Shown here one piece after another: positions 11,015 through 50,081 of a stretch of DNA of 64,000 bases. Source of the stretch: Sinorhizobium saheli (lineage in GTDB: Bacteria > Pseudomonadota > Alphaproteobacteria > Rhizobiales > Rhizobiaceae); assembly GCF_001651875.1 (NCBI RefSeq), contig NZ_LNQB01000083.1:315130-379129 (forward strand). Direction: 5' to 3'. Each line of letters begins with the position of its first letter. The first letter of the stretch is position 1. The notes under the pieces are model-generated. The model had not been told where the DNA came from and did not search any database. It was given only the letters and a program-made list of their open reading frames with translations. The position numbers and the translations under genes were made by a program.

Positions 11015-11074
11015 GGCAGTCACTATGTTTGTTGACTCCGTATCGCCGACTGGAATTGTCAAATTTACACTAAG
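11015..11074. repeat. Direct repeat block A, copy 1
   Basis: GGCAGTCACTAT..TTTGTTGACTCCG.. through TTACACTAA lies just upstream of the LuxR-type gene. It recurs in the same orientation at 49975-50031 with a few substitutions and two small gaps. Confidence 0.8.
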
Positions 11075-11360
11075 AAAGTTCGTGATTATTTCTTTACATG
11101 AAATGCATTGTTACGACAATTCTCCAGTAGACGCCGAAATTGTTGACGTTTGATAAGTTCAGAACGGTAGATTAAGCATTGCAATACTTGGCATTCATTA
11201 TGATTTATTGATACAACCATCGGGCGCCGCTGTCATTATCGCCCAGTTCAGATAGTTATCTCGCCGTTCATTTCTACTCAAAATGGACTAGCTCGGCTCG
11301 CCGAACAGGGTAGATCTCCTGAGTTGCAATGCTTCTTTGGTAGGCAGCCAATAGGCCCGG

Positions 11361-11394
11361 GCACCGGCCTTCGGCCGGAATGTCGCCTTGACAC
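11361..11394. repeat. Direct repeat block B, copy 1
   Basis: A 34-base block beginning GCACCGGCCTTCGG and ending CGCCTTGACAC. It is found again at 50048-50081 with one mismatch. In copy 1 it lies 286 bases after block A; in copy 2 only 16 bases separate them. Confidence 0.85.
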
Positions 11395-11636
11395 GGTAGT
11401 GTGCTGAAGGTTCTGCAAATTCTCTGGGAAGGGCGGTCGTGGCAGCTCGTGTATCCGGCACGGCACAAGGTCCAGCAATAATCATTCCTCCGCCAGATCC
11501 TCATTGACCCGAGTTCTGGCGGTCACCCCCTACCCACCAGCTATCGCTTTGCCCGGGTGCGTGCCGCACGCCGTCGGCCGCGGCCCGCGACATCGAGCGC
11601 GTGGGTGCTTTTGTTAACGTCCCTCTTAAGCCGACA

Positions 11637-11673
11637 TTCAGGCGACATGAATTGTCGCGTTCAGGTGAAATGA
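11637..11673. promoter_or_regulatory. Tandem and inverted repeats upstream of the aldehyde dehydrogenase
   Basis: TTCAGGCGACATGA (11637-11650) and TTCAGGTGAAATGA (11660-11673) are direct repeats with 12 of 14 bases equal, 23 bases apart. GCGACA-N5-TGTCGC (11642-11658) is a perfect inverted repeat inside them. TTCAGGTG also occurs inverted at 14088-14095 beside the LysR gene, so this may be that regulator's binding region. Confidence 0.4.
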
Positions 11674-11729
11674 GGCATGCTCCTGGCAGAGGCCCGCCCC
11701 CTGCCGCATGGCACTGTCGAGAGGTTCAA

Positions 11730-13160
11730 ATGATGATCACCGAGCGAGGAAACCAGTTCTATATTGGTGGGGAGTGGCAAGAACAGGCGGACGCACCAAG
11801 TCTGCCCGTCGTTGATCCAGCCTCGGAACGAATTATTGGGCGTATCGCCGCCGGGAACGCTCGTCACGTCGATCTTGCGGTCGCGGCAGCGCGCAAGGCC
11901 TTCCCCGCCTTCTCTCGAACATCCGTGTCCGAAAGGCTCGAGCTTCTCGGCAGGGTGCATGCGCTGCTGAAGGAGAAAGCGGAACTCTTCGCCGAGACCC
12001 TCGTCATGGAGATGGGCGCAGCGATCAGCTTCGCGCGCGCCTCGCAGGTTTCTTTCGCTGCCGAGCACGTTCGCGTCCAGATGGAAGTTCTTCAGAACTA
12101 TCCGTTCCTGACGATTGATGGGCGCACCGCAACCGCCAAGGAGCCGATCGGCGTTTGTGCTTTGATCACCCCGTGGAACTGGCCACTCTACCAGATCACC
12201 GCCAAGCTTGCCCCAGCGATCGCGGCGGGCTGCACCGTCGTCCTCAAACCCAGCGAGCTTTCTCCCTACAGCGCCTTGCTCTTCGCCGAACTGATGCACG
12301 ACGCCGGTACTCCGCCGGGCGTGTTCAACCTCATCAACGGCACCGGAGAGAGTGTTGGTGCAGCGCTCTCCAGCCATCCGGATGTCGACATGATCTCGAT
12401 CACCGGCTCGACGCGCGCGGGGGTGCTCGTCGCGCAGGCGGCTGCCCCGACGGTCAAGCGGGTGGTGCAGGAACTCGGCGGCAAGTCCCCGAACATCCTG
12501 CTCGATGATGCTGATTTCGCCGAGGCGGTGCCAAAGGGCGTCCTTGCCGGAATGCGCAATGTCGGCCAGTCATGCAGCGCCCCGACGCGCATGCTCGTAC
12601 CCGTCCATCGGCTCGCCGAAGTCGAAGCTCTGGCCGGCAAAACCGCGGACGCCATCCGCGTCGGCGACCCGCGCGATCCCGAGACCGCCATGGGGCCGAT
12701 TGCCAATCGCGCCCAGTATGAGCGGGTGCAGGCGATGATCCGGGCGGGAATCGATGAAGGCGCGAAGCTCCTCTGCGGCGGACTGGGCCGTCCAGCAGGT
12801 CAGGATCGAGGCTTCTTCACACAGCCGACGATCTTTTCCGAGGTTCGGCCGGACATGCGCATCGCTCGCGAGGAAATCTTCGGGCCGGTCCTGGCGATCA
12901 TGCCGTACCGGGACGAAGAGGAGGCGATCGCAATCGCCAACGACACCGTTTATGGACTGGGCGCCCATGTCCAGTCCTCGGATCGGGAGCGGGCGCGACG
13001 GGTCGCCTCCCGGATCCGCGCCGGGCAGGTTCACATCAACTATCCGGCATGGGACGGGACGGCCGCGTTTGGTGGCTACAAGCGCTCAGGCAATGGCCGC
13101 GAATACGGCGTGCACGGGCTCGAGGAGTATCTCGAGACGAAGGCCATCCTGGGCTATTGA
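11730..13160 (+). CDS. NAD(P)-dependent aldehyde dehydrogenase
   Basis: 476 residues from ATG 11730 with GAGAGG upstream; the longer open frame runs back through the control repeats. It oxidises an aldehyde to the acid. The ALDH superfamily signatures are all present: the substrate/cofactor motif PWNWPLYQ, the general base in ELGGKSPN (Glu248), and the catalytic cysteine in GQSCSAPTR (Cys282). It lies at the left end of an amino-acid catabolic group and converges on a LysR gene whose stop codon overlaps its own by 7 bases. The aldehyde may come from the nearby FAD oxidoreductases or the threonine-aldolase-type enzymes, but the substrate cannot be read from sequence. Confidence 0.93.
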   Translation: MMITERGNQFYIGGEWQEQADAPSLPVVDPASERIIGRIAAGNARHVDLAVAAARKAFPAFSRTSVSERLELLGRVHALLKEKAELFAETLVMEMGAAISFARASQVSFAAEHVRVQMEVLQNYPFLTIDGRTATAKEPIGVCALITPWNWPLYQITAKLAPAIAAGCTVVLKPSELSPYSALLFAELMHDAGTPPGVFNLINGTGESVGAALSSHPDVDMISITGSTRAGVLVAQAAAPTVKRVVQELGGKSPNILLDDADFAEAVPKGVLAGMRNVGQSCSAPTRMLVPVHRLAEVEALAGKTADAIRVGDPRDPETAMGPIANRAQYERVQAMIRAGIDEGAKLLCGGLGRPAGQDRGFFTQPTIFSEVRPDMRIAREEIFGPVLAIMPYRDEEEAIAIANDTVYGLGAHVQSSDRERARRVASRIRAGQVHINYPAWDGTAAFGGYKRSGNGREYGVHGLEEYLETKAILGY

Positions 13161-14080
13161 CCCGGATCCGCGCGAGCGGCTTGCCATGGCGGCGGCTTCA
13201 GCGCCTGTCGAAGCATCGTCAGGAAGGCGGCAGTGCGGGCGCTTCGCCCGTGCCGCGAGCCGAGCATCGCGACGATGTCGGCCGGTGGGAGCTTCCAGCT
13301 GGGCAGCACCTGCCGCAGCCGTCCGGCAGCGAGATCTTCTGCGACGTTCCACTCGGAACGGATCATGATGCCCTGCCCGGCAAGCGCCCACTCGCGGATG
13401 ACGGCACCATCGTTGCTCGACATGACCGGATTGACGCGCACCGTCGCAATCTCCTGCCGCGGCCCCTTGAAGCGCCACAGCGTCACGTCCTCGTCGTTTT
13501 CCCGAATGGCAAGGCAGCGATGCTGAGCAAGGTCGGCGGGCGCTGAAATGGGCGGTGCCGAGTCGAGGTATGTCGGACTTGCGCAGAGTATTCGAGGGTT
13601 CGGCGCCAATGTCGTAACGACCTGCTCCAGATGCCCCGGCGCCCCGATATGAACGACGACATCATAGCTTTCAACGAGCAGAGCCGCCGGGTGATCGGAC
13701 AGTTGCAGGCTAGCGGTCGCGCCGCCGTGCTCTCGTGCGAACGCTTCGACGACCGGGGCCACATAGAGCCGTCCGAACCCGTGCGGTGCGGCGACCCTGA
13801 GGTGTCCGCGAACGACACCCCTGCGATCCGCCAGGGCTTCGGCAAGCGAATCGATGGCCTCGCTGACGATAACGCTGTGCGACGCGACCAGCGAGCCCTC
13901 TTCCGTGAGCCGCAGCCGCCGTCCGGACCGGTCGATCAGCCGCACCCCGACTTTCTCTTCGAGGGCGCGCAGGCGCTGTGTCACCGCCGGAGGGGTCACG
14001 TTCAGCTTTCTCGCGCTTTCCGCGAGAGATTTCGAGCCTGTCAGCGCCGAAAAGAAGGCAAGATCGTCAGACGTCAACAT
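13154..14080 (-). CDS. LysR family transcriptional regulator
   Basis: 308 residues. The N-terminal winged helix has the usual LysR layout (FFSALTGSKSLAESARKLNVTPPAVTQRLRALE, in pieces) and a periplasmic-binding-like effector domain follows from about residue 90. It is divergent from the D-threonine-aldolase/D-serine-dehydratase-like gene, 88 bases away, and should control it in response to an amino-acid-like effector. Its 3' end overlaps the aldehyde dehydrogenase gene tail to tail. A TTCAGGTG element shared with the dehydrogenase control region suggests both flanks are targets. Confidence 0.93.
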   Translation of the reverse strand: MLTSDDLAFFSALTGSKSLAESARKLNVTPPAVTQRLRALEEKVGVRLIDRSGRRLRLTEEGSLVASHSVIVSEAIDSLAEALADRRGVVRGHLRVAAPHGFGRLYVAPVVEAFAREHGGATASLQLSDHPAALLVESYDVVVHIGAPGHLEQVVTTLAPNPRILCASPTYLDSAPPISAPADLAQHRCLAIRENDEDVTLWRFKGPRQEIATVRVNPVMSSNDGAVIREWALAGQGIMIRSEWNVAEDLAAGRLRQVLPSWKLPPADIVAMLGSRHGRSARTAAFLTMLRQALKPPPWQAARADPGQ

Positions 14081-14168
14081 TAATCACCACCTGAAGCGAA
14101 CATTCACCAGACATTAATTGTCATCTTCATGGTTTGACTGCAAGGTGAAATCCCGAATTGGAGATCAG
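14081..14168. promoter_or_regulatory. Divergent LysR / PLP-enzyme control region
   Basis: Contains two ACATTAAT direct repeats (14078-14085 and 14111-14118, approximate) and CACCTGAA (14088-14095), the inverse of the TTCAGGTG seen upstream of the aldehyde dehydrogenase. AT-rich compared with the flanking genes. Confidence 0.4.
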
Positions 14169-15350
14169 ATGATGGTCCTAGCGACGACCGACCCCATATC
14201 CCGGCTGGCCGCCTCGACAAGCCTCGAGGACCTGGAAACACCCTGCTTGGTCCTGGACGCCGACCGTATGGACAGGAATGTTCAGCGGCTCAGGAGCCGA
14301 CTTGACGCCATGGGCGTGTCACTCCGGCCGCATTTGAAGACCGCCAAGTCGGTCGAAGTGGCACGGCGGGTGATGAGCTCGCCGGAGGGGCCTGCGACCG
14401 TCTCCACCCTGAAGGAGGCTGAACAGTTCGCGGCGGCAGGCGTCCGTGACATGATCTATGCAGTCGGCATCGCTCCAGCCAAGCTCGAGCGTGTCGCGGA
14501 GCTGCGGGCGAGCGGCGTCGATCTCGTAGTTACCCTGGATACTGTTCAGCAGGCACGGGCGGTGGCCGAGGCGTCCCGGCGGACCGGAGCGCCCATCCCG
14601 GCCATGATCGAGATCGACTGCGACGGCCACCGCTCCGGTGTGCGACCGACTGATCAGCCACAGCTGGTGGAAATCGGGCGGGCGTTGACGGAAGGTGCCG
14701 AGCTGCGTGGCGTGCTCACCCATGCCGGCGACAGCTATAAGGGCGGAGGCGTCGAGGCGCTGCGGCTTTACGCGGAGACGGAACGATTGGCCGTCGTCGA
14801 GGCCGCGCGCATCCTGCGGACCGCGGGGCTGCCCTGCCCGGTCGTCAGCGTCGGCTCGACGCCGACGGCCCATCACGCGACGGATCTCGCTGGAGTGACG
14901 GAAGTCCGCGCAGGCGTCTTCGTCTTCTTCGACCTGGTGATGGCGGGGCTTGGTGTTTGCCAAATCGACGACATCGCGCTCAGCGTGCTTGCGACCGTCA
15001 TCGGACACCAGCGCGAGAAAGGCTGGATCATAACAGATGGCGGATGGATGTCGCTGTCGCGGGACCGTGGCACTGGCAAGCAGGCCGTCGACCAGGGCTA
15101 TGGGCTGGTCTGTGACGTGGATGGCACGCCGTATCATGACATCATCGTTTCCGACGCGAACCAGGAACATGGAATCATAGCGGTGCGCCCCGGGTCGGAT
15201 GCACGGCTCCCGGATCTCGCGGTCGGAGACCGGGTACGGATCCTGCCAAACCACGCCTGCGCGACCGCTGCGCAGCACGAAACCTATCACGTGGTCCGCG
15301 GCCGCTCGCACGCTGTCGAGACCCGCTGGACCCGCTTCGGAGGCTGGTGA
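14169..15350 (+). CDS. DSD1-family PLP enzyme (D-threonine aldolase / D-serine dehydratase-like)
   Basis: 393 residues from ATG 14169 with GGAG upstream. The fold-type III (alanine-racemase-like) barrel carries the PLP lysine in RPHLKTAK (Lys57). The C-terminal beta domain has the metal-binding His362/Cys364 pair in PNHACAT. This combination defines zinc- or manganese-dependent D-serine dehydratase, D-threonine aldolase and beta-hydroxyaspartate aldolase (BhcC). The reaction is therefore cleavage or dehydration of a beta-hydroxy amino acid. The ridA start overlaps its stop by one base, so enamine/imine products of PLP chemistry are expected. Which substrate is used cannot be decided without phylogeny. 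Confidence 0.85.
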   Translation: MMVLATTDPISRLAASTSLEDLETPCLVLDADRMDRNVQRLRSRLDAMGVSLRPHLKTAKSVEVARRVMSSPEGPATVSTLKEAEQFAAAGVRDMIYAVGIAPAKLERVAELRASGVDLVVTLDTVQQARAVAEASRRTGAPIPAMIEIDCDGHRSGVRPTDQPQLVEIGRALTEGAELRGVLTHAGDSYKGGGVEALRLYAETERLAVVEAARILRTAGLPCPVVSVGSTPTAHHATDLAGVTEVRAGVFVFFDLVMAGLGVCQIDDIALSVLATVIGHQREKGWIITDGGWMSLSRDRGTGKQAVDQGYGLVCDVDGTPYHDIIVSDANQEHGIIAVRPGSDARLPDLAVGDRVRILPNHACATAAQHETYHVVRGRSHAVETRWTRFGGW

Positions 15351-15775
15351 TGCCCGAGTCCAAGACTGTGAACACCGATCGAGTACCAAGCCCGGCGGGC
15401 CACTACTCACAAGCGAAGCTCGTCGGTCAGCACCTCTACATTTCGGGTCAGCTACCGATCCGACCGGGTGGAGAGGCCCTGGCGGACGACAGCTTCGAGA
15501 CCCAGGCGGGGCAGGCGCTCGACAACCTGCTGGCGATCCTGGAAGCCGCAGGCGGAACCCCGGCCGATCTCGTCAGGGTGACGGCCTACATCGTCGGCGT
15601 GGCCAATTGGCCTCGCTTCAACCAGGTTTATGCGGCGCGACTGGGGGATTCCCGCCCGGCTCGCACCGTCGTTCCGGTGCCGGAACTTCACTATGGCTAT
15701 CTCGTCGAAGTCGATGCGATAGCCGTCATTGCCTCAGATGCTCCTGCCGGAGGGGCAGGAAACAGCGCCGTATAG
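15350..15775 (+). CDS. ridA: RidA/YjgF family imine deaminase
   Basis: 141 residues from ATG 15350, overlapping the preceding stop (TGATG), so translation is coupled. RidA proteins hydrolyse reactive 2-aminoacrylate or 2-iminobutyrate released by PLP enzymes and FAD oxidases. The family core is visible: LYISGQLP, the ARTVVPVPEL segment with the conserved arginine that binds the imine carboxylate, and LVEVDAIAV near the end. Its position between a DSD1-type enzyme and an FAD amine oxidoreductase fits detoxification or completion of deamination. Confidence 0.9.
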   Translation: MPESKTVNTDRVPSPAGHYSQAKLVGQHLYISGQLPIRPGGEALADDSFETQAGQALDNLLAILEAAGGTPADLVRVTAYIVGVANWPRFNQVYAARLGDSRPARTVVPVPELHYGYLVEVDAIAVIASDAPAGGAGNSAV

Positions 15776-15804
15776 ATCGGCCGCCAGAGTTCAGGTCAAC
15801 CCCC

Positions 15805-17124
15805 ATGTCTCCAATCGTCAAACGCATACACAGCGATCAAGAGCTTCCCGCCAAGGCGGATGTCGTCGTCATCGGCGGCGGCATCATTGGTGCTACGGCG
15901 GCATTCTTTCTCGCGGAGCGGGGACTGTCCGTCGCCCTGGTCGAAAAAGGCCATGTCGGTGGCGAGCAGTCGAGCCGCAACTGGGGTTGGTGCCGGCGGC
16001 AGAATCGGGATGCCCGCGAACTGCCGCTCTCGGGCATCGCTTTGCAAGCTTGGGATGAGTTTGCGGCGAAGATCGGTGAGGACGTCGGCTTTCGCCGCTG
16101 CGGTTTGCTCTACGCCACGGACAATCCCCAGCAGCTGGCGGAATGGGAAGCATGGCGTGAGTTGGCCCGCCCTTTTGACGTCAATACGAAGATGCTGAGC
16201 GCCAAGGAAGCGGCTGCGGCAATTCCGGCGAAAGGCCGCCAATGGCTCGGCGGCGTCCATTCGATCGATGACGGCAAGGGCGAACCCGCCATCGCCGCGC
16301 CGACGATCGCGAACGGCGCCCGCAAATTCGGGGCGACGATCCACCAGGAATGCGCTGCCCGGGGCCTCGAGCTGGTCAACGGTGCGGTGGCCGGGGTGAT
16401 CACCGAAAAGGGGCTCATCCGGACACAAGCCGTCCTCTGCGCCGGCGGCGCCTGGACGTCGATGTTTTGTCGCCAATACGGCGTCCTGTTTCCGCAGGCG
16501 AGCGTGCGCCAGACGGCGCTTCGTACAAGGCCGACCGCGAATCTGGGTGAAGCGATCTATACGCCGGAGTGCGCGCTGACCCGCCGGTTGGATGGCAGCT
16601 ACACGCTTGCGATCAGCGGCAGGGCGATGCTCGACATCACCCCGCAAGGCATTCGCTACGCCCGCTGGTTCATGCCGATGTTCCTGATGCGTCTGAAAGC
16701 GGTGCAAATAGGTATCGGCGGGTCCTTCTTTCATGGTCCGGAGGCATTCGCTCGCTGGAACAGCGACACGACGTCGCCGTTCGAGCGGATGCGCGTTCTC
16801 GACCCGGCGCCGAGCCGCCGGACGATGGCGGCTATTCTGAAAGGTGTCACAAAGCAGTTCCCTGCACTGAAGGGCATCGAAATCGCCGACAGTTGGGGAG
16901 CCTATGTGGATTGCACGCCAGACGCGGTGCCGGTCATCTCGCCGGCCGATGTGAAAGGCCTTTACATCGCCGCGGGCGGTTCCGGCCACGGCTTCGGCCT
17001 CGGGCCGGGCATCGGCCGGCTCGCGGCCGACCTGGTGGCCAATGATACGCCCTGCGTGGACCCCAGCCCCTTCCGCCTGTCGCGTTTCGTTGACGGTTCG
17101 AAGGTCAAAGTCGGAGGAATCTGA
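15805..17124 (+). CDS. FAD-dependent D-amino-acid-oxidase-type oxidoreductase (paralogue 1)
   Basis: 439 residues; ATG at 15805 (MSPIVKR). The Rossmann FAD motif is VVVIGGGIIGATAAFFLAERG. An unusual signature follows: GGEQSSRNWGW plus RRQNRD. The C-terminal GSGHGFGLGPGIGRL closes the DAO fold. It should oxidise a primary or secondary amine, giving an imine that RidA or water resolves. It belongs to the ridA operon (29-base gap). A second enzyme with the same signature is at 28726-30060, and each is accompanied by a 117-aa cupin. Substrate unknown; not a glycine oxidase by obvious motif. Confidence 0.88.
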   Translation: MSPIVKRIHSDQELPAKADVVVIGGGIIGATAAFFLAERGLSVALVEKGHVGGEQSSRNWGWCRRQNRDARELPLSGIALQAWDEFAAKIGEDVGFRRCGLLYATDNPQQLAEWEAWRELARPFDVNTKMLSAKEAAAAIPAKGRQWLGGVHSIDDGKGEPAIAAPTIANGARKFGATIHQECAARGLELVNGAVAGVITEKGLIRTQAVLCAGGAWTSMFCRQYGVLFPQASVRQTALRTRPTANLGEAIYTPECALTRRLDGSYTLAISGRAMLDITPQGIRYARWFMPMFLMRLKAVQIGIGGSFFHGPEAFARWNSDTTSPFERMRVLDPAPSRRTMAAILKGVTKQFPALKGIEIADSWGAYVDCTPDAVPVISPADVKGLYIAAGGSGHGFGLGPGIGRLAADLVANDTPCVDPSPFRLSRFVDGSKVKVGGI

Positions 17125-17253
17125 TCGCCGAGCAGACCAGGAGCAAGCCGTCATGGCGACGCGCAGCAGGGGCCGAGGAGAATGCACTGCGATGCATCGG
17201 TTTCCTGACGACCACGCCGAGCCATTCACTCAGCTAAGAAAATGGAGAACCAG

Positions 17254-17607
17254 ATGTCACTACTGAAAACCATCGACCCGAATCCATCGTTTGAACCGAA
17301 GCATAGGACTGCCGAGCCGGATCGCCTGATCGCCGGCAGCCCCGCTTTCAAGACCTGGTTGCAGGACACCGCCAAGGAGGGCAGAGTCAATACCGGCGTT
17401 TTCGAGGCGACGCCCGGTGAGACGCACTCCATCAAGGGCGAAACGTTTGAATTTTGCCACCTCGTCCATGGTGTGATCGAGTTGACCGAGAAGGGTAAGG
17501 AGCCGGTCATCTATCGCGCGGGCGACAGCTTCGTGATGAAGCCCGGCTATGTCGGGGTTTGGAAGACAATCGAGACGGTGCGGAAAATCTTCGTCACGGT
17601 CACCTGA
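17254..17607 (+). CDS. Small cupin-domain protein (paralogue 1)
   Basis: 117 residues; ATG 17254 with GGAGA 8 bases upstream. A single cupin of the DUF861/EutQ-like type: GVFEATPG, KGETFEFCHLVHGVIEL, RAGDSFVMKPGYVGVW. The histidine/glutamate metal set is partly replaced, as in ureidoglycine aminohydrolase-like cupins. The protein has the same length and a very similar core to the cupin at 22698-23051. It lies 129 bases after the FAD oxidoreductase. A role on the oxidation product (tautomerase, hydrolase or binding) is an inference. Confidence 0.85.
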   Translation: MSLLKTIDPNPSFEPKHRTAEPDRLIAGSPAFKTWLQDTAKEGRVNTGVFEATPGETHSIKGETFEFCHLVHGVIELTEKGKEPVIYRAGDSFVMKPGYVGVWKTIETVRKIFVTVT

Positions 17608-17888
17608 TCATTCGAGCGAGGGGATGCTGGTTCGACGTGCATAGTTCCTGATTCCAGGGCAAAACGCGATCCGGCAGACACGCCCTTCGATCGGCTCAAT
17701 CCCGAAATCGGATGGGCGGTTTGTCCGCCCACGCCGTCTTGCAAATCCGGTTCGCGCTCGCAGCGAAAACCGCTTCAAGGGCTCGTGCATCGCTGCTGTC
17801 GCGGTACAGCCTGAGGCTCTTCAACGCTTCACCCGGTTTTGCGACAGCCCTTCTCTGCTGTTCCTAGGTGAGCTTAGAGACCAACGAA
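17608..17888. other. 281-bp gap between cupin and acetyltransferase genes
   Basis: I see no gene, clear promoter or terminator in this stretch. Short open frames on both strands lack ribosome binding sites. Confidence 0.4.
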
Positions 17889-18737
17889 ATGGATCAACCC
17901 ATGCGAACGGAAACGGTCACTCTCGCGCCTTTCGAGGCTCACCATCTGGATGGTGCTCTGGCGCTGTCGCGGGCAGCGGGCTGGGCGCACAGGAGAGAAG
18001 ACTGGAAATTGATTTGGTCGATAAGCGAGGGACGCGTTGCGCTCGCGGGTGACCGTGTGGTGGGCACGGCTCTCATGACTCCCTTCGGCGACACCTGCTC
18101 AGCCATCAACATGATCATTGTCGACGAAAGCCAGCGTGGCCGGGGACTGGGACGACAACTGACCACCGCCGTGATCGACCTCGCCGGGGATCGGGAATGC
18201 CGTTTGACGGCCACGAGTGACGGCTTACCTCTTTACGAGAAGCTGGGCTTCGTTGCGACGCATCAAATCGTCCGCCACCAGGGTGTTGTTGGACGAGTTG
18301 GTGCTCCCGAAAATGTTGAGTGGATCGGGGCCGACGCCATGCCGGCAATCAAAGCGCTCGACCGTGCGGCTTTCGGCGCCGATCGCGACGCGCTCCACGA
18401 TGCGCTGGCGAAAGAGGGGCCGTTTGCCGTTGTCCGGAACGGTGACAATATCGTCGCCTTCGCGGCTACGCGACCTTTCGGGATGGGCGAAGTCGTCGGG
18501 CCAGTCGTGGCCGAAAACGCCGAACAGGCGAGGGATTTGATTGCCTTTATCCTCTCCGGCAAGGAGGGTCGGTTCGTGCGCATCGACGTCCCTGAACAGA
18601 GCTGCCTTTCGTCGTGGCTCGAAGGCTGGGGGCTGGTTCACGAGGGTGGAGTGATTGCGATGGTTCGGGGTGCTACAGGCGAATCGCAAACGCCGCAGGT
18701 TCGAACTTTCGTCCTGGCCAGCCAGGCGCTCGGCTGA
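17889..18737 (+). CDS. GNAT family N-acetyltransferase, two-domain
   Basis: 282 residues from ATG 17889; GTG 17868 is an alternative without a ribosome binding site. The N-terminal GNAT domain (about 10-135) includes the acetyl-CoA loop ESQRGRGLGRQL and the strand GLPLYEKLGF. The C-terminal half (about 150-280) resembles the YitH/Acetyltransf_18 type second domain (ALDRAAFGADRDAL). Such enzymes acetylate small amines or amino acids. Its place beside amino-acid enzymes suggests modification of an intermediate or of a toxic analogue, which is inference. Confidence 0.85.
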   Translation: MDQPMRTETVTLAPFEAHHLDGALALSRAAGWAHRREDWKLIWSISEGRVALAGDRVVGTALMTPFGDTCSAINMIIVDESQRGRGLGRQLTTAVIDLAGDRECRLTATSDGLPLYEKLGFVATHQIVRHQGVVGRVGAPENVEWIGADAMPAIKALDRAAFGADRDALHDALAKEGPFAVVRNGDNIVAFAATRPFGMGEVVGPVVAENAEQARDLIAFILSGKEGRFVRIDVPEQSCLSSWLEGWGLVHEGGVIAMVRGATGESQTPQVRTFVLASQALG

Positions 18738-19147
18738 CTGATCTCCCGGGGATACTGCCGGAAGCACGAGCTTGGAGCGAATAATCCGCCCAAGCATTTT
18801 GGGCATTGCCGACCGACAGTCCTCCCCTGCCGGGTCGCCCCACAAGGTGAAACCACTTCATCAGACGGTCTGAGCGACGCCGCGGCGAGCCCGCCTTCCA
18901 AGCCGCTGCGGCCTTTCCGCTGCGTCGACCGCGATCTCGAGGCGGCCGCTTTTTAGAAAGACTTCTCCGCCGCTCTCGTGCTGGTATTAGTTCCCGGTCA
19001 CAATAGTCCGTCGCTGCACCTATCAAACCAGAACTACTGATGGCCTTATTGGTGAACCTGCATCACCAAAAGCCGTCAGCAAAATTCGATAGTCCGGTGC
19101 GGTCGCTGGGGTGTATCACCAGGCAGCCGCAACGATGGATCTGGACT
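18738..19147. other. 410-bp gap, no gene seen
   Basis: No open frame here has a family signature. A GC-rich stretch ending GGCGGCCGCTTTTTAG (about 18941-18956) could terminate the acetyltransferase transcript. The last 60 bases must hold the promoter of the threonine aldolase gene, but no consensus elements stand out. Confidence 0.4.
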
Positions 19148-21455: not shown

Positions 21456-21471
21456 CACGCCACCTCAGTCG

Positions 21472-23051: not shown

Positions 23052-23074
23052 ATATCACCTTTCTACTGTAACGT

Positions 23075-40013: not shown

Positions 40014-40019
40014 AGGACC

Positions 40020-40200: not shown

Positions 40201-40201
40201 C

Positions 40202-40651: not shown

Positions 40652-40684
40652 AGCATAGTGTCCTTGTTGAGCACGCCGTCCTGG

Positions 40685-41053: not shown

Positions 41054-41067
41054 TTGCGATCTCCCCA

Positions 41068-41928: not shown

Positions 41929-41945
41929 TGGTATCGCTTCCGACG

Positions 41946-42719: not shown

Positions 42720-42726
42720 TGCAGCT

Positions 42727-43551
42727 TCAATTGACGGTGAACGGGATGTTCGGAATGGATTCCGGGAACTGCGGCAGGTCGATCGCCATCCACTTCTTCG
42801 TGATGGCGGCAAGCTCACCATTGGACTTGATCTTGTCGATGAAGGCGTTGACGGCTTCGTTCCAGTCCTTCTCGCCGAGACGGGTCCCGACGCCGTTGTA
42901 GGTCGTCAGAAAGTTAATCTTGCGCTCATAGGTGCCGGCACTCGCCGCATCCAGGCGCTGACCATAGAACTGGTTGCCGCCAACCGCCTTTACCTGCCCG
43001 GAGATCAGAGCCTGGATGGTTGCAGCGTCGTCATCAAAGCGGCGAACCGTTGCGGTGGATCCGACGGCGTCCGTTACTGCCTTGTCCTGCGAACTGGACT
43101 TCGGAACGCCGATCTCCCACCCCGCAATGTCTTCAGGCTTCGTAACCGTGTCGGACTTCGCGGCATAAAGCGAAATCGTGTTGGCAGCATAGGGCTTGCT
43201 GTATTGAATTGATTTCGCGCGTTCTTCCGTCATCGCCATCGTTGCGAACAGGATGTCGACCTTGCCGGTCGTAAGCGCCGGAATTCGGTTGGCAACGGCG
43301 AGCGGCTGGAATTGAACCTTCACGCCCAATTCCTTGGCAAAAAGGTTGGCGACGTCAGCGTCGAAACCGTCCTGCACGCCGCTTGTGTTGACGAAGCCCC
43401 ATGGCGCATTGTCGCCCTGGATGCCGACCACAAGCGTGCCCTTTGCCTTGATTTCCTCCACACTTGCCGCGGAGGCGGTGGCAGCACCAACGGTTGCGAA
43501 GGCGACGGTTGCGAGGGCAAGTCCGAGAAAATTCCTACGATTGTTATGCAT
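42727..43551 (-). CDS. ABC transporter binding protein (SBP family 3) with Tat-like leader
   Basis: 274 residues; ATG 43551 with GGAGG-type site. The leader [14 protein letters not shown] carries paired arginines followed by FLG, so Tat export is possible. Mature part: [48 protein letters not shown], typical of polar solute binding proteins. Since the operon degrades shikimate-like or aromatic compounds, the ligand may be a cyclic hydroxy acid rather than an amino acid; this is inference. Confidence 0.9.
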
Positions 43552-43592
43552 GCTTCTTCTCCTCCTCAAGAGTTTTGCTTCGAGCGAAGCGG

Positions 43593-44243
43593 TTAGCGGG
43601 CAGCTTTCGCCATCCGTTTTTCGAGGCCGCTTCCTACATGGGAGAGCGGCCAGCAAATGATGAAGTAGATTGCGCCGACGATCCCGAAGACGAGCAGCGG
43701 ACGATAGGTCTGGTTTGAAATGATCTGGCCGACGCGAGTGAGTTCAATGAAGCCGACGAGTGCTGCGAGCGACGTGCCCTTGATGAGCTGGACAAGGAAG
43801 CCGATCGTGGCCGGCAGCGAGATTTTCAGGGCCTGCGGCAAGATGACGTCTTTCATCCGCGAGCCATAATGCAGACCGAGGGCGTTGGCGGCTTCCGTCT
43901 GGCCCTTCGGCACAGCCTCGATGGAGCCGCGCCAGATCTCGCCCAGGAAGGCACTGGCATGGAGCGTGAAGGCGATCGCGACCGCGATCCACGCGTTGAC
44001 CTCGACGCCCAACAGCGCAACGCCGTAATAGACAACGAAGAGCTGCATCAGAAGGGGCGTGCCCTGGAAGATGCCGATGTAGCCTGCGGTGATCGTGCGG
44101 GTGACCTTCTTCTTCGAAGTGCGCAGCAGCGCGATCAGGATTCCGAATATCCCCCCGCCGATGAAGCCCACGATCGCGAGCAGCACGGTCCACTTCAGAC
44201 CCTGCATCAAAAAGAAGAGTTCATCTTCGCCGATGGGACCCAT
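43593..44243 (-). CDS. Amino-acid-type ABC transporter permease
   Basis: 216 residues, HEQRO family, about five helices. Coupling-loop region GSIEAVPKGQTEAANALGL. Pairs with the permease at 44253-44921 (9-base gap). Confidence 0.92.
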   Translation of the reverse strand: MGPIGEDELFFLMQGLKWTVLLAIVGFIGGGIFGILIALLRTSKKKVTRTITAGYIGIFQGTPLLMQLFVVYYGVALLGVEVNAWIAVAIAFTLHASAFLGEIWRGSIEAVPKGQTEAANALGLHYGSRMKDVILPQALKISLPATIGFLVQLIKGTSLAALVGFIELTRVGQIISNQTYRPLLVFGIVGAIYFIICWPLSHVGSGLEKRMAKAAR

Positions 44244-44252
44244 GGCTGCCTC

Positions 44253-44921
44253 CTATCGCGTCGGGTAGTTGAAGTAATGACGAGAAATGAGGGCAAAGAG
44301 GCCCATCATCATCGTCGAGATGACCAGGTAGATAGCGGTCACCATGAAATAGACTTCGAAGCTGCGGAAGGTGTCCGATTCAATGCGCTGAGCGGCCGAG
44401 GTCAGTTCGTAGGCGGCGATTGACGTGCAGACGGACGTTGTCAGTGTCAGCATGATGAACTGGCTCGTGAGCGAGGGATAAATCGCCCGCAGCGCCGGCT
44501 TGAGCACGATGAGCCGGAAGACATCCGCCTTGTGCAGTCCAAGTGCGAAACCGGCCTCGATCTGGCCGCGCGACACGCTCTCGACCCCGCCTCGGATGAT
44601 CTCGATTGCGTAGGCCCCACCATTGATGCCGAGGGCCATGATCGCCGTGACGGTCGGATTGAGGCGGATGCCCATGAGAGGAAGGGCAAAATATATGAAG
44701 AAGATCTGCACGAGGAATGGCGTGTTGCGCACGACCTCGACGAAGACGATCACTGGAGTGCGCGCGATCTCGCTCTTGGAAGTCCTTGCAACAACGCCGA
44801 GGATTCCGATGACGAGTGCGAGGAGCATCCCAGCCAACGCAAGGCCAAGCGTTCCAAGCGAAGCCCATAGCAATTCCGGGGCGCGGTCGAGGACCGCACC
44901 GAAATCAAACCTGTAAGACAT
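44253..44921 (-). CDS. Amino-acid-type ABC transporter permease
   Basis: 222 residues, HEQRO family. Coupling-loop region GGVESVSRGQIEAGFALGL. Forms a heterodimer with the next permease; 45 bases after the TIM-barrel gene. Confidence 0.92.
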   Translation of the reverse strand: MSYRFDFGAVLDRAPELLWASLGTLGLALAGMLLALVIGILGVVARTSKSEIARTPVIVFVEVVRNTPFLVQIFFIYFALPLMGIRLNPTVTAIMALGINGGAYAIEIIRGGVESVSRGQIEAGFALGLHKADVFRLIVLKPALRAIYPSLTSQFIMLTLTTSVCTSIAAYELTSAAQRIESDTFRSFEVYFMVTAIYLVISTMMMGLFALISRHYFNYPTR

Positions 44922-44966
44922 GTAAGACTTCCTCCCTCCGACCGGCTTACGCCGCGTCGGGCCGGA

Positions 44967-45788
44967 TCACTGATCCGGTTTCAAAATCCCCAGTGCGCTG
45001 TCATGCAGATGTTTTAGATGTGCCCCCGGGTCCACCGACCCGACGAGCGGCACTTCGACCGAGACAGCGGTGCCGTATTCGGTTGCAGCCAAGAGCTCCT
45101 TCAATGGCAGTTCGCCTTCTCCAGGAGCAAGCCTGCCGCTTCTCGCCTCGGCGATCATTGCGTCCGATGTTTCGGGAGCGGGCCCGCAAACGTCGCAAAG
45201 CTGGACGTGTTTTACCTTCCCTGCATTTCCGTGCAGCTCGTCGACCGAAGCGCCGTTGCGGAAGAAGTGAATCCCGTCAACGAGGGCACCGGCGTTCTCT
45301 GCTCCACAGGCTTTCACGACCGCCAAGCTGTCGCGGAAGGTCCTAACCGTCCGCCAGCCCATGTTTTCGATGTCGACCGACATGCCATATCGCGCCGCGA
45401 GGGCGCAAAACGCAGAAAAGTTTGCGGCAAGGCGGCCGCCGTCTCGATCATCGCCGCAAACACTCAGCCGGCGCGCCCCTATGTTCGCAGCGGCTGCCAC
45501 GGTCGCCTCATGGGAGACCGCAACGAAGCTCCCGTCGATCACGAAGAACTCGATATCGAACACCTTGACGCCTTCGCCGTCGGCAATTGTCTTGAACTCC
45601 CGGGCACTCTCACTGCCCACCGGCAACTCGTAGAAAGGGGCTCCGGGAAAGGCGGGGTGCAGCCGCAGACCTATCGACGCAAAACCCGCCCGAGCAGCCG
45701 TCACGGCGAATTCCCTGGGCGGCAGCGCGATGGATGAAAAATGCGCCACGCCAAGTTCAAGGCCCGGTCCTGGCGGCGCGACGGTCAT
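44967..45788 (-). CDS. Sugar-phosphate-isomerase/epimerase-like TIM barrel (candidate 3-dehydroshikimate dehydratase)
   Basis: 273 residues; ATG 45788 overlaps the GntR stop by one base (TGATG). AP-endonuclease-2/xylose-isomerase-like barrel with metal-site segments DIENMGWRTV, LVDGIHFFRNG, HVQLCDV and VEVPL. AsbF/QuiC-type 3-dehydroshikimate dehydratases have this fold, and in an operon with aroE and aroQ the protein is a good candidate for turning 3-dehydroshikimate into protocatechuate. A sugar isomerase or epimerase role cannot be excluded. Confidence 0.7.
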   Translation of the reverse strand: MTVAPPGPGLELGVAHFSSIALPPREFAVTAARAGFASIGLRLHPAFPGAPFYELPVGSESAREFKTIADGEGVKVFDIEFFVIDGSFVAVSHEATVAAAANIGARRLSVCGDDRDGGRLAANFSAFCALAARYGMSVDIENMGWRTVRTFRDSLAVVKACGAENAGALVDGIHFFRNGASVDELHGNAGKVKHVQLCDVCGPAPETSDAMIAEARSGRLAPGEGELPLKELLAATEYGTAVSVEVPLVGSVDPGAHLKHLHDSALGILKPDQ

Positions 45789-46525
45789 CACAAGATCCCC
45801 TTTGTCGCGAGATGATTGCGCAGATTGGTTCCCGTGCGGTGGATATGCTGACGCAACATGTCGCAGGAATAGTCCAGATCCCGCGCGACGGCTCCCTGAG
45901 CAATCTCACTGTGCTCCTGGCTGACGTTGCGGTCACCCGACGTGCGGGTCAGGAAAACCCGGCGATAACGGTCGTTGAGATTAAGAAGCAATCTGCAGAA
46001 ATGGAGCAGGATCGGCTTCCCGCAGCCAGAGATGAGTGTCAGATGAAATTCGCGGTGGAGCTCTTCCCAGCGCTCCAATGTCTCCGGCCGAGCCGCGTCG
46101 CGCTCGGTGCGGTTAAGGCGATGCAGCGCGCGCATGACGTTGCCCTCCCACTCCACATCGCCGAGCCGCATGGATTCGCGAAGCGCAAAGACTTCAAACT
46201 CTTCGCGCAGGGTGGTGATCTCTTCCAGATTGGCCAGGGAAATTGGTGAAACGCGATAGCCGCGATTGTCCTCGAACTCCACCAGGCCGTCGGATATCAG
46301 TCGCGCCAATCCTTCACGCAGCGGACTGAGGCTTACGTTGAACGTCTTGCGCGCCTTGTCGAGATTGATCTTGCTGCCGGCCTGAAGCTCGCCGGAGATG
46401 ATAGCCTCACGAAGACGGGATGCAAGCTGGCTCCCAATCGTGTTTTTGCCGTCGTCAAGAAAGCCAGAAGACGATGGGGCATCTTCTGTCGTCGGAGCAA
46501 ATGCGCCGTCGTCATCCGGTACCAT
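45788..46525 (-). CDS. GntR (FadR subfamily) transcriptional regulator
   Basis: 245 residues from ATG 46525 with GGGAGGA upstream; the TTG five residues earlier overlaps that site. Winged helix: LREAIISGELQAGSKINLDKA, SLSPLREGLARLISDGLV, RGYRVSPIS. FCD domain (about 95-235): REFHLTLISGCG, HSEIAQGAVARD. It heads the shikimate/transport operon and is divergent from the dioxygenase operon. Matching ATAA-W-CGATTAT sites in both promoters indicate repression of both arms and of itself. Confidence 0.93.
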   Translation of the reverse strand: MVPDDDGAFAPTTEDAPSSSGFLDDGKNTIGSQLASRLREAIISGELQAGSKINLDKARKTFNVSLSPLREGLARLISDGLVEFEDNRGYRVSPISLANLEEITTLREEFEVFALRESMRLGDVEWEGNVMRALHRLNRTERDAARPETLERWEELHREFHLTLISGCGKPILLHFCRLLLNLNDRYRRVFLTRTSGDRNVSQEHSEIAQGAVARDLDYSCDMLRQHIHRTGTNLRNHLATKGIL

Positions 46526-46563
46526 TGTTCCTCCCAAGGCTCCCCCGACCCAATTGTCGATGA

Positions 46564-46592
46564 TCGATACAATAAACGATTATTTATGTCAA
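46564..46592 (-). promoter_or_regulatory. gntR promoter with GntR operator site
   Basis: On the minus strand TTGACA (46592 to 46587), 17 bases, TATCGA (46569 to 46564). ATAAACGATTAT (46572-46583 on the plus strand) fills the spacer. It differs by one base from the site at 46735-46746. Confidence 0.6.
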
Positions 46593-46727
46593 CTTGGGAG
46601 CGCCGAAATCTGCAGCAAGTCGAGGCCTCAACTAATTCTTGCGACCAATATCTAGTAAAATCAATGTCGTATGCTGCCAAGTCCTCTTCCTGCCGGCTAT
46701 TGGCGGCCGCAAGAATATACGACGGCC

Positions 46728-46756
46728 TTGACAGATAATCGATTATTTGGATAGTC
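46728..46756 (+). promoter_or_regulatory. Dioxygenase-operon promoter with GntR operator site
   Basis: TTGACA (46728-46733), 17 bases, ATAGTC (46751-46756). The perfect palindrome ATAATCGATTAT (46735-46746) lies directly behind the -35 element. The -10 match is weak, so an activator or alternative position is possible. Confidence 0.6.
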
Positions 46757-46777
46757 CGGAACCGGGAGGTAGCCCAC

Positions 46778-47671
46778 ATGGTGATCAAAACCGAGAGCGA
46801 TCTGACGCCAGCCGTCCTCGCTGTGATGAATCGCACTGAAGACCCCCGCCTGCGAGAAATCCTCGTCGCGATGGTCAAGCATCTTCATGCCTTCGTGCGA
46901 GAGGTTCGACTGACGGAGGTCGAGTTTCGGGAGGCGACAGCCATGCTGAATGAGATCGGGAGGCTGCATACCGATCAACACAACGAGTTTGTGCTGATGG
47001 CCGGTTCCCTTGGCGTGTCTTCACTTGTCTGCCTGCTGAACAATGGCGACAGAGGACAGACCGAGACCTCCCAGTCGCTGCTGGGCCCGTTCTGGCGCCT
47101 CAACTCTCCGCGAATCGAAAATGGCGGGACGATCATCCGATCCGAGACGCCGGGCACTCCCTTGTTCGTGCATGCCAAGGTCGTTGACCGCGACGGCAAG
47201 CCAATTGCCGGCGCCGAAGTGGATGTGTGGCATGCATCTCCGGTCGGTCTTTATGAAAACCAGGACCCGGACCAGGCCGAGATGAACTTGCGCGGCAAAT
47301 TCATGACCGACGAGCAAGGTCGGTTCTGGTTCAGGACCGTCAAGATGGTCGGGTATCCGATACCGGTCGATGGCGTGGTCGGACGCCTGCTCAAAGCCCA
47401 GGGACGCCATCCGTACCGACCGGCGCACCTGCATGCACTGATCTTCAAGCACGGATACAAGACGCTGATTTCCCAGGTCTTCGACCCCAGCGACCCGAAC
47501 ATCGACTCCGATGTTCAGTTCGGTGTCACAGCAGCGCTCACCGGCGACTTCATTCGCCATGAGGAGCCCCATCCGACCGAAGCGGATATTCCCGGTCCAT
47601 GGTTCTCGCTCGACTACACCTATGTCATGGAGCCCGGCGAAGCAGTCTTGCCGCGTCCCCCGATTAAATAA
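46778..47671 (+). CDS. Intradiol ring-cleavage dioxygenase (hydroxyquinol/catechol 1,2-dioxygenase type)
   Basis: 297 residues, ATG 46778 with GGGAGGT upstream. The N-terminal dimerisation domain (about 10-110) is that of catechol and hydroxyquinol 1,2-dioxygenases, absent from protocatechuate 3,4-dioxygenase. The Fe(III) ligands are all visible: Tyr159 (GLYEN), Tyr193 (GYPIP), His217 and His219 (RPAHLHA). SLLGPFWR and VDVWHASP fit the family. It opens an aromatic ring between two hydroxyls in the cytoplasm. First gene of the plus arm of the GntR divergon. Confidence 0.92.
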   Translation: MVIKTESDLTPAVLAVMNRTEDPRLREILVAMVKHLHAFVREVRLTEVEFREATAMLNEIGRLHTDQHNEFVLMAGSLGVSSLVCLLNNGDRGQTETSQSLLGPFWRLNSPRIENGGTIIRSETPGTPLFVHAKVVDRDGKPIAGAEVDVWHASPVGLYENQDPDQAEMNLRGKFMTDEQGRFWFRTVKMVGYPIPVDGVVGRLLKAQGRHPYRPAHLHALIFKHGYKTLISQVFDPSDPNIDSDVQFGVTAALTGDFIRHEEPHPTEADIPGPWFSLDYTYVMEPGEAVLPRPPIK

Positions 47672-47695
47672 ATCACGATCAGCAGAGCAAACGAT

Positions 47696-48478
47696 ATGAT
47701 CACCGAAGAAGAACGCCGGGCCGCGGCAGACGCGCTGCTCAAAGCTGAAATCGAGCGGAAGCCGATCATACAGCCAAGCAAGACCTACCCGAACCTCGAA
47801 CTCGAGGACGCCTACCGGATTCAGGCTTTATGGGCGGAGGCGAGGGTTGCCAAGGGCGCACGGATCGTCGGGCATAAGATCGGCCTGACGTCACGCGCAA
47901 TGCAGATGGCTTCGAAAATGACGGAGCCGGACTACGGCTGCATTCTTGACGATGCGCTCTACAACGACGGAGCGCAGATCAGGGCTGACCTGTTTATCAA
48001 GCCGCGCCTCGAGGTCGAGCTGGCCTTTGTCATGGGTGAGGATCTCGTCGGGCCCGCCGTCAGGATCTATGACGTCATGCGTGCGACCGAGTTCGTTGTC
48101 CCGGCGCTCGAGATTATCGACTACCGGACCGAAGTCCCTCGGGCGATCACCGATACCATTGCGGACAACGCGGCTTTCGGCGCCCTCGTCGTTGGCGGCC
48201 GCATAATTCGCCCGATGGACATCGATATCCGTTGGGTCGGAGCCACTCTTTCCAAGAACGGCATCATCGAGGAGTCCGGCGTGTCGGCGGCGATCATGGG
48301 ACATCCGGCAGCCGGCATCGCCTGGCTGGTCAACAAACTTCATGCCGTGGGCGGTGGCCTGAAGAAAGGACAAATAGTCCTTGCCGGCTCCTTCACGCGT
48401 CCTGTCGATATCGCGAGAGGTGATGTCATTCAGGCCGACTACGGCCCTGTTGGCTCCATCGGCGTGTCGTTCGTGTGA
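47696..48478 (+). CDS. hpaH: HpaH-like 2-oxohept-3-ene-1,7-dioate hydratase
   Basis: 260 residues. HpaH/MhpD family: [45 protein letters not shown] with metal-binding glutamates, and [13 protein letters not shown]. The enzyme adds water to a 2-oxo-alkenoate from meta-cleavage. The ribosome binding site is weak, and the 24-base gap to the dioxygenase gene suggests co-translation. Its usual partners HpaD, HpaE and HpaG are not in the window. Confidence 0.88.
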
Positions 48479-48486
48479 GGTGCTCG

Positions 48487-49281
48487 ATGGAACATCCCGT
48501 CAATCGTTTCAAGCAGAAGCTTCTTGCCGGTCAAAGCCAGATCGGCCTCTGGTGTGGCCTGCCGGGAAGCTACGCCGCGGAAATCGTCGCGCCTTCGGGT
48601 TTCGATTGGCTCCTGTTCGACACGGAACATTCTCCGGGTGACGTTCTGACCGTCCTGCCACAATTGCAAGCGGTTGCACCATACGAGGTTTCCCCAGTCG
48701 TCCGCCCGGCCATCAACGACCCCGTTCTCATCAAACGTTTCCTCGATATTGGCGTTCAGACCCTGCTCGTTCCCTACGTTCAGAACGCGGTCGAAGCGAA
48801 AGCCGCAGTCGCGGCCGTGCGATATCCTCCGGATGGAATTCGCGGTGTTTCTGCCCTGACGCGCGCCACTCGTTTCGGCCGAGTTGCAAACTATGCGCAA
48901 GATGCGGAACGCGAAATCTGCCTGTTGCTGCAAGTTGAGACGCGGGAAGCGCTTGGCAACCTCGAGTCGATCGGGTCGGTGGAGGGGGTGGACGGCGTAT
49001 TCGTAGGACCGGCAGATCTGGCAGCGAGTTTCGGACACAGGGGCCAACCGAGCCACCCGGAGGTGGTCGATGCAATCGTCGACGCGATTGAACGCCTGAA
49101 AGCATTGGGCAAGCCTGCGGGCATTCTTACCCCGGATGAGAAGTTCGCGGCGCGGTGCATCTCGCTCGGAACACTATTTACGGCCGTTGGTGTCGATGTC
49201 GCTGTTCTGGCAAGGGGATCGGAAGCACTCGCGGCACGATTCGCATCGCAAGGAGCGGACCGCGGTGTCGGAACGCGATGA
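48487..49281 (+). CDS. hpaI: HpaI-family class II pyruvate aldolase
   Basis: 264 residues from ATG 48487 with GAGGTG upstream. HpcH/HpaI family: [24 protein letters not shown] with metal/acid residues, [39 protein letters not shown]. It cleaves a 4-hydroxy-2-oxo acid to pyruvate and an aldehyde. It follows the hydratase by 8 bases, completing a hydratase-aldolase end of a meta-type pathway. The next gene starts inside its 3' end. Confidence 0.9.
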
Positions 49282-49948
49282 AATCCTCGCTGAAATCGCA
49301 CCGACGGGAGTGATCAGGGCGGCGGTCAACATGTCGAATGCCGCACTTGTCCGACTCGATCCAGTGACAGGCTCTCTGACGGGGCCGAGCGCGCAGATCG
49401 CGCTCGAACTTGCAGCAGAACTCGACTGCGGTTTGTCGCTGGTTCAATACGGATCGGCCGCCGACATTCTTGCGGCTGCCGAAGGCAACGAGTGGGACGT
49501 TGCATTCATTGCTTCCGATCCGTCACGTGTCGACAGGTTCTCCTTCTCGCCCTCCTATACCACGGTGACCGCCAGCTTTCTGGTGTCAGACGGTAGCGCG
49601 CTCGGCAGCGTGGGACATGTCGATGTCGAAGGGGTGCGCATCGCCGCCGCCAGAACCGCTGCGTATACAAAGCAGCTTGAGCGACGGATCAGAAAAGCAA
49701 TCCTCCTCCATACCGCAAATCCCGCCTCCGCCCTGGACATGCTTGTATCCTCGCAGTGCGATGCGGCTGCGGGCTTGACCGAGTCCCTGTCCCGTTTCTG
49801 CAAAGAGAATCCAGGTTTCCGCGTTGTTGAGGGGTCATTCTCGAAAGTGCCTCAGGCGATCGCCGTGCATCGGAGGTGCGTTCACGCTTCAACCTTCCTG
49901 TCGGACTTCGTCCAGCAGCATTGCTGTGCGGACAAGACGGGTAACTGA
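49265..49948 (+). CDS. Leaderless solute-binding-fold protein (SBP family 3-like)
   Basis: 227 residues from GTG 49265 with AGGAG 10 bases upstream; it overlaps the aldolase gene by 17 bases. The sequence follows the family 3 binding-protein pattern ([51 protein letters not shown], and a late [13 protein letters not shown]). It has no signal peptide and is shorter than usual (230-270 mature). Being cytoplasmic, it may be a sensor, a chaperone for an intermediate, or an enzyme, since cyclohexadienyl dehydratases derive from this fold. No transporter adjoins it directly. Confidence 0.75.
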
Positions 49949-49974
49949 AGCTGGCGGGACGAAAGCCCCAGGCA

Positions 49975-50081
49975 GGCAGTCACTATATTTGTTGACTCCG
50001 TATCGCTGACTGAAATTCAAATTACACTAATAAATCTTTTGAGCCGAGCACCGGCCTTCGGTCGGAATGTCGCCTTGACAC
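49975..50081. repeat. Direct repeat blocks A and B, copy 2
   Basis: Block A (49975-50031) matches 11015-11074 with a few substitutions and two small gaps. Block B (50048-50081) matches 11361-11394 at 33 of 34 bases. Both are in the same orientation as copy 1. About 270 bases present between the blocks in copy 1 are missing here. The LuxR gene that copy 1 precedes is absent at this site. Confidence 0.8.

Follow-up and report, generated by a model that had tools for sequence, protein, structure and literature searches.

The interval and a catabolic locus in two halves

We analysed a window of 64 kb (G000:C83:315130-379129) from the draft genome of Sinorhizobium saheli (5.99 Mb in 102 contigs) and compared it with 32 other Sinorhizobium genomes, one per species; S. 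fredii NGR234 (G007) and S. sojae CCBAU 05684 (G020) are among these relatives. Within the window, 38.6 kb of DNA lie between two pieces of the leader of a LuxR-family gene, an interval that the original prediction took for a catabolic island bounded by a direct repeat. Comparison shows that it does not form a single island; it consists of three modules, which have separate places in Sinorhizobium relatives: module A (11588-34990), module B (35199-40024) and module C (40036-49960). In our opinion it is probably an assembled region, the core of which is one half of a catabolic locus split by duplication or import and subsequent complementary loss.

A Pfam scan took in 41 open reading frames (ORFs) between the leader pieces; some of them overlap one another, so that the number of genes is lower than 41, and not all ORFs were scanned. 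Matches to enzymes, transporters or regulators were obtained for 35 of the 41 (one of them an acetyltransferase) and no match for the other six, which agrees with the catabolic and transport genes and local regulators that had been expected here. No integrase or transposase was present among these 41 scanned ORFs, which are not the full set. The 64-kb window contains no tRNA and gave no Rfam match at gathering thresholds. The best matches of the interval in relatives are about 89-96% identical and are found at other loci, while the flanks reach about 77-88%, each at loci of its own. This step in identity and the different loci of the matches support the view that the interval is out of place.

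The neighbours of module A in NGR234, when searched for in the S. saheli genome, led to another contig, C90. The 48-kb NGR234 locus, aligned to the window and to C90, was recovered as nine alternating segments in the same order and orientation: the window holds S2, S4, S6 and S8, and C90 holds S1, S3, S5, S7 and S9. The overlap between the two is 265 bp, against 6,844 bp expected; values as low were reached in 140 of 44,063 circular shifts and in none of 20,000 block shuffles. Together, the two places hold the gene set of the relatives, and each of them lacks what the other keeps. The parts of module A are as follows:

11588-18836: segment S2, with an aldehyde dehydrogenase, a LysR regulator, a D-serine-dehydratase-like enzyme, an FAD oxidoreductase, a cupin and an acetyltransferase
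18841-18938: remnant of S3, whose genes are kept on C90 (score 101 against C90, shuffle maximum 36; 141 against NGR234, maximum 32)
18932-28480: segment S4, with a beta-eliminating lyase, ornithine-cyclodeaminase-like and PALP enzymes, an amino-acid ABC transporter and a class-III aminotransferase
28498-28616: remnant of S5, whose Lrp/AsnC-type regulator (Pfam) is kept on C90 (score 155 against C90, shuffle maximum 35)
28620-30201: segment S6, an FAD-dependent oxidoreductase, with edges in common with C90 over 78 and about 55 bp
30254-30316: remnant of S7, whose oxidoreductase and oligopeptide-type ABC transporter are on C90 (score 89 against C90, shuffle maximum 37)
30310-30443: S7/S8 edge, present in both copies (93% identical to C90:26926-26793)
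30320-34990: segment S8, with GntR and LysR regulators, a four-carbon acid sugar kinase-like protein (name taken from plasmid annotation) and a PdxA-like dehydrogenase

The window part thus comprises FAD oxidoreductases, lyases, dehydrogenases, an aminotransferase, an amino-acid ABC transporter and regulators. On C90 there are an aldehyde dehydrogenase, the Lrp/AsnC regulator, an FAD oxidoreductase and the oligopeptide-type ABC transporter.

The joints between the window segments were tested by comparing alignment scores with those of 60 shuffles. The S3, S5 and S7 remnants all exceeded 60 of 60, and the edges of 78, about 55 and 134 bp occur both in the window and on C90 at 84, 79 and 93% identity. 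Since the window joints carry remnants of genes that C90 has kept, the window would once have held a second copy of the locus, and both copies would have lost complementary parts.

All nine segments form an unsplit block in G007 (NGR234), G011, G021, G009 and S. americanum CCGM7, and in G006 they are spread over two contigs. The exception is the beta-eliminating lyase gene (18932-20183): G011, G021 and G006 lack it, and G009 has it in inverted orientation. As it is missing, inverted or elsewhere in the loci of several relatives, this gene seems to move on its own. Depleted blocks were also observed: G001 is without most of S4, G008 is without S1, S2 and most of S4, and G012 is without most of S8 and S9 at its main locus. 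Sequences in relatives are about 90% identical to module A, and the surroundings of the locus are common to 10 of the 10 loci compared on the left and to 7 of 9 on the right. At the edge of the locus, C90:18978-22770 is inverted, so C90 itself is rearranged as well. The window contig and C90 may belong to one replicon, as both resemble parts of pNGR234b.

We propose that the locus S1-S9, one block in the relatives, came to exist twice, at its usual place (now C90) and beside the LuxR leader (the window). Genes would then have been lost from either copy while the other kept them, which would leave the two interleaved sets seen today.

Modules B and C and the leader pieces at the edges

The other two modules and the features at both ends of the interval are the following:

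35199-40024: module B, with a PrpF-like tautomerase, an NMT1-type ABC transporter and a LysR regulator
40036-49960: module C, cut at both ends (Pfam and relatives)
40036-40200, minus strand: the 55 initial codons of a gene for a GFO/IDH/MocA oxidoreductase (347 amino acids in relatives), cut at the B-C joint
10235-11002, minus strand: LuxR-family (GerE) regulator gene, 255 amino acids, intact (Pfam GerE E 1e-19; tblastn 68-82% protein identity at loci L069-L088)
11003-11394, minus strand: LuxR leader, repeat copy 1, with blocks 11014-11077 and 11357-11394; 11182-11346 is conserved in many relatives
11395-11451, plus strand: remnant terminus of an ISRm5-like element of the IS256 family (plasmid matches, neighbouring transposase, shared insertion border)
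49974-50081: leader remnant, repeat copy 2, without the conserved middle (repeat match, leader alignment)
50082-50147: probably the leader's original continuation, which copy 1 has lost (summed score against shuffles, weak)

Module B is 78-93% identical in relatives. When its flanks were compared (10 on the left, 11 on the right), only the pair G004/G023 had kilobases in common, and the module also occurs on plasmids of Rhizobium and Phyllobacterium. In the spacer between A and B, 33 bp (34995-35027) match three Sinorhizobium plasmids at 88-94%.

Module C encodes a type II dehydroquinase, a shikimate-dehydrogenase-like enzyme, an ABC transporter, a sugar isomerase-like enzyme, a GntR regulator, an intradiol dioxygenase, an FAA hydrolase and an HpcH/HpaI aldolase. 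Of the 21 genomes that gave strong matches, 20 supplied a locus for comparison, and in these the module is 92-95% identical. To the left of the module, 17 of the 20 have about 1.0-1.3 kb more in common and one about 0.5 kb; a further left flank is common to L105 and L106 alone. To the right, 13 of the 20 share about 0.2-0.7 kb. Apart from L105/L106, the outer flanks (compared out to a distance of 3 kb) are not in common. Neither of the flanks missing from module C was found elsewhere in the S. saheli genome. Modules B and C, clusters that stand at many different loci of the genus, lie next to A, and the B-C joint cuts the oxidoreductase gene.

The imperfect direct repeat that had been predicted around the interval is real. 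Its first block matches over 11014-11057 and 49974-50017 at 93% without gaps and, if small gaps are allowed, over 11014-11077 and 49974-50034 at 89% (E 4.8e-15). The near-identity claimed for the second block was also found, with 36 of 38 bases (95%) between 11357-11394 and 50044-50081 (E 1.2e-9; both values come from whole-genome searches). The blocks have the same order and orientation in both copies, and copy 2 is not accompanied by a LuxR gene, as had been stated. With 108 bp against 381 bp, copy 2 is 273 bp shorter, so that the description of it as shortened holds. It is not merely shortened, however: on its right side, 50082-50147, there is a weak continuation of the leader like that of some relatives, whereas copy 1 breaks off at 11394 against the end of an insertion sequence (IS).

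No third copy was found in the 102 contigs of the S. saheli genome, where the remaining matches are at most 25 bp long with E >1. The leader blocks thus occur in two copies only; a repeat scattered over many loci would have spoken against its part in the history of the interval. Among one genome per species in GTDB 220, a set from which the S. saheli genome itself may be absent, the first block had 0 matches. An additional match in the own genome, on C56 (E 3.6e-10), covers just 11205-11283, a part missing from copy 2.

A relative of the LuxR gene is present in all 33 genomes of the genus, S. saheli included, and in 17 of the 32 others it was matched side by side with parts of the leader. We compared the leaders of 20 relative or paralogous loci (L069-L088) with copies 1 and 2. 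The flanks of these 20 loci are common in just three groups (L071/L074/L087, L077/L086 and L084/L088). The first 180 bp of the leader are the most variable; 11182-11346 is conserved in copy 1 and in 18 other rows, L077 and L086 being the exceptions, and some of the 20 leaders have a recognisable second block. For block 1, the two copies score 90 against each other, and either of them scores at most 33 against any of the 20 leaders; for block 2 the values are 66 and at most 31. Being far closer to each other than to the 20 leaders, the copies point to a leader duplication that arose within this lineage.

To the right of block 2, the sequence was compared with 18 relatives (L077 and L086 left out) by a summed score and 200 shuffles. 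For copy 2 (50082-50147) the score was 464, with shuffles averaging 415 and reaching 457 at most; for copy 1 it was 376, with a mean of 374 and a maximum of 403. There is thus a weak and one-sided indication that the right side of copy 2, and not that of copy 1, keeps the original continuation of the leader. Directly to the right of it, 50148-50294 is a repeat with many genus-wide copies among the matches listed.

The IS terminus begins at 11395, the exact base at which copy 1 ceases to match copy 2. The stretch 11395-11451 is matched by 152 plasmid records. On S. meliloti pEm1132b, one such terminus is followed, about 100 bp further in, by the start of an annotated ISRm5 transposase, and the proteins beside the terminus at two places are Mutator-family transposases (Pfam Transposase_mut). 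In six fetched loci, two of which are the same place, four different left flanks stop at one identical base. Unlike a full ISRm5/IS256 element, the window has a single terminus and no transposase for it. A composite transposon was considered and rejected, as it needs two flanking IS copies.

These observations can be combined in the following way. The LuxR leader would have been duplicated in this lineage, with copy 1 keeping the gene and ending at the IS terminus and copy 2 keeping the far side. The simplest entry step would be recombination between two leader copies, one of them already interrupted by the IS, which would leave their pieces around the incoming DNA.

The LuxR gene and its leader also have counterparts elsewhere in the genome. 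A second LuxR gene, L077 (C44:15117-15919), is 84% identical and is embedded in about 9 kb of sequence collinear with G023; its leader is unrelated. The C56 match to 11205-11283, a part of the conserved leader element 11182-11346, (C56:38749-38827, L003 1501-1579) is 77% identical and lies upstream of an NAD-dependent epimerase gene that adjoins an AraC-type regulator. This layout resembles the CuxR/uxs1 arrangement of S. meliloti, and by analogy the LuxR gene and the C56 epimerase operon may share a control region.

Competing histories

Duplication or import followed by complementary loss is what we infer as the process, with recombination at the leader as the entry step. Several results weigh against this reading. 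The joints on C90 are without clear remnants of the lost segments beyond the common edges, so the duplication is read mainly from the window side. The spacers 11446-11587 and 34991-35199 have no clear match to the locus apart from a single weak one (41, shuffle maximum 35). Modules B and C have no second copy in the S. saheli genome, which means that complementary loss does not account for them. The copies also date unlike: the S3 remnant and the 28620-28697 edge are nearer to relatives (90-92%) than to C90 (81-84%), while the S7 remnant and the 30310-30443 edge are nearer to C90 (89-93%). At the leader, the continuation of copy 2 was matched by just 5 of 18 relatives at no more than 8 of 200 shuffles (for copy 1, by one relative at 3 of 200), and no second IS end of comparable strength was found in the window.

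The uneven dates bear on where the second copy came from. It may have arrived from another Sinorhizobium megaplasmid, NGR234-like and with the modules in the order A, B, C, and have recombined near the leader before the losses. This history, which differs from the favoured one in source only, has in our estimate somewhat less than an even chance. For each segment we divided the own distance by the distance among relatives (five relatives, bootstrap ranges). The ratios on C90 are 1.50 for S1, 1.45 for S3, 1.40 for S5 and 1.65 for S7; those in the window are lower, with 1.14 for S2, 1.14 and 1.07 for two parts of S4 and 1.13 for S6, and S8 lies between at 1.23. By their bootstrap ranges, S1, S3 and S7 are distinct from S2 and from the longer of the two S4 parts, but the range of S5 (1.06-1.73) overlaps. 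In trees, S4 is placed with NGR234 (support 0.97-0.99), and S2 clusters with G021 and G001 (0.99-1.0). For S1, S3, S7 and S8 the branch of S. saheli is long and weakly placed, except that S7 goes with G012 (0.96). NGR234 carries all three modules with the order and orientation of the window and gaps of 51 and 15 kb, A and C are collinear in CCGM7, and the higher identity of the interval than of its flanks would also fit such an import.

Other results speak against an imported copy. S8 and the 30310-30443 edge resemble the C90 version, and the window is grouped with C90 when the remnants are joined (support 0.999). None of the 20 leaders from relatives comes close to the leader pieces, and the three modules are not collinear in GR64, CCBAU 45436 and S. 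sojae. Of the genes in the B-C gap of NGR234, the S. saheli genome has only paralogs at 72-76%. From the 51-kb A-B gap, 19.9 kb were searched in the S. saheli genome, and parts of it were found on C90 and C96 (about 25 kb were tested overall). A copy of the whole NGR234 region is thus a possibility and no more. Judged by distances and trees, the window copy is a mosaic, and it is plausible that its left part was imported. We would give about even odds to the fuller version of the favoured history, in which the locus was divided operon by operon into interleaved halves after a partly foreign copy had arrived and such splitting is perhaps a regular route on megaplasmids.

It is possible, though we rather doubt it, that the arrival of module A and the leader pieces are unconnected. 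The pieces would then be a chance left-over from duplication of the LuxR unit, with A, B and C coming later and separately. The LuxR unit does stand at many different loci, and each module has joints of its own. Yet the pieces keep different sides of one leader, they lie at the outer edges of the interval, and one of them ends at the IS.

A single 38.6-kb island, inserted between the two leader repeats or excised and amplified by them, is very unlikely. The direct repeats at both ends and the rise in identity inside the interval are what such an island would produce, and the idea of an insertion at the leader holds in part: the interval is out of place, the leader is duplicated and an IS end lies at the break. 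There is, however, no single unit of this size. In relatives the modules stand at separate places between unrelated flanks, and A is one half of a locus that has been split. The repeats, accompanied by one IS end only, are short and have diverged, and the 41 scanned ORFs include no mobility gene. Excision or amplification as a unit left no sign. The empty site that had been predicted, with the LuxR gene followed directly by a pair of NarL genes, was found in none of the 32 other genomes, each of which stands for a different species. Seven of these carry the NarL pair (five at 75-77%, two at 68%); in G025 a pair at 68% lies about 4 kb from the LuxR unit, but on its other side, which is not the predicted order. 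An integrative genomic island or integrative and conjugative element was rejected as well (no integrase in the 41 ORFs scanned, no tRNA in the window, no empty site).

We give slightly less credit still to the reverse history, in which two separate clusters existed first and the block of the relatives arose by interleaving one into the other. Complementary halves look alike in either direction, but the process would take several insertions, all of them correctly ordered and oriented, the joints of the window carry remnants of C90-kept segments in the right places, and the block occurs in at least six species. Least credible is an error of assembly or a mixed sample, for which a draft in 102 contigs might leave room: misjoined pieces of one block cannot yield joint remnants and edges 79-93% identical to their counterparts, and a second organism (listed contamination 1.23%) would carry the whole block.

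Models of gene-order change and further splits in Sinorhizobium

Why gene order changes in bacteria is debated. In yeast, whole-genome duplication was followed by reciprocal gene loss, and the S. saheli locus is like it in showing two interleaved halves of an ancestral order, although here a single bacterial locus is affected and not a whole eukaryote genome. Among the papers listed in literature searches, none described a natural case of a bacterial locus split in this way, and the nearest accounts are those of the SNAP model.

According to the SNAP model (Brandis and Hughes 2020, PMC7055797), the two copies of a duplicated region lose different genes, whereby the duplication becomes fixed and the order of genes changes. 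Complementary gene sets at two places and a changed gene order are also what we see in S. saheli. SNAP is a proposal with modelling and examples of early steps, namely partial chromosome duplications under selection, the duplication being kept for gene dosage in a new niche (PMC7055797). Unlike SNAP, the S. saheli copies are at two loci, they are split segment by segment and the second may be partly imported. A later paper (Brandis 2021, PMC8046335) offers duplication or transfer from related species with unequal loss as a cause of rearrangements in operon clusters; the cases considered here are single genes or operons of a translation cluster, whereas S. saheli presents a catabolic locus in nine alternating segments with remnants left. 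The authors of the 2020 paper state that further genome evidence for the SNAP process is needed (PMC7055797).

If our reading is correct, the locus would be a natural end state of duplication and complementary loss in which the remnants are still readable, and would offer a natural view of how bacterial gene order is reshuffled. As the intact block and its two halves are at hand together with the remnants and the additional splits, it can be established in which order and when the losses occurred, and what their source was. It is worth stressing that predictions of pathways from gene neighbourhoods would see just half of such a locus. In Sinorhizobium the same locus would also have undergone no fewer than two other splits of a different kind, and splitting may then be a regular route of gene-order change.

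In S. sojae CCBAU 05684, one plasmid carries S1-S2 at about 1,409-1,421.7 kb and, some 100 kb away at about 1,295-1,314 kb, S3, S7, S9-type sequence and the start of S8 (loci L212 and L200 cover the split). S4 and S6 were not found in this genome at the cut-off used, S5 is at neither of the two places, and no remnants were seen at the joints. In G012 (L195-L197, contigs C11 and C8), most of S8 has its place on a different contig, next to 366 bp that remain of the GntR gene (85 and 78% identical in two pieces), while the GntR copy at the main locus is full-length by alignment. Duplication is thus supported by this remnant in G012, whereas in S. sojae we infer it only. The joints of both differ from those of S. 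saheli, so the events were separate ones. A further rearranged form is present in S. americanum CFNEI 73 (L213, about 368-390 kb), where S9-type sequence lies on both sides of S7, once inverted.

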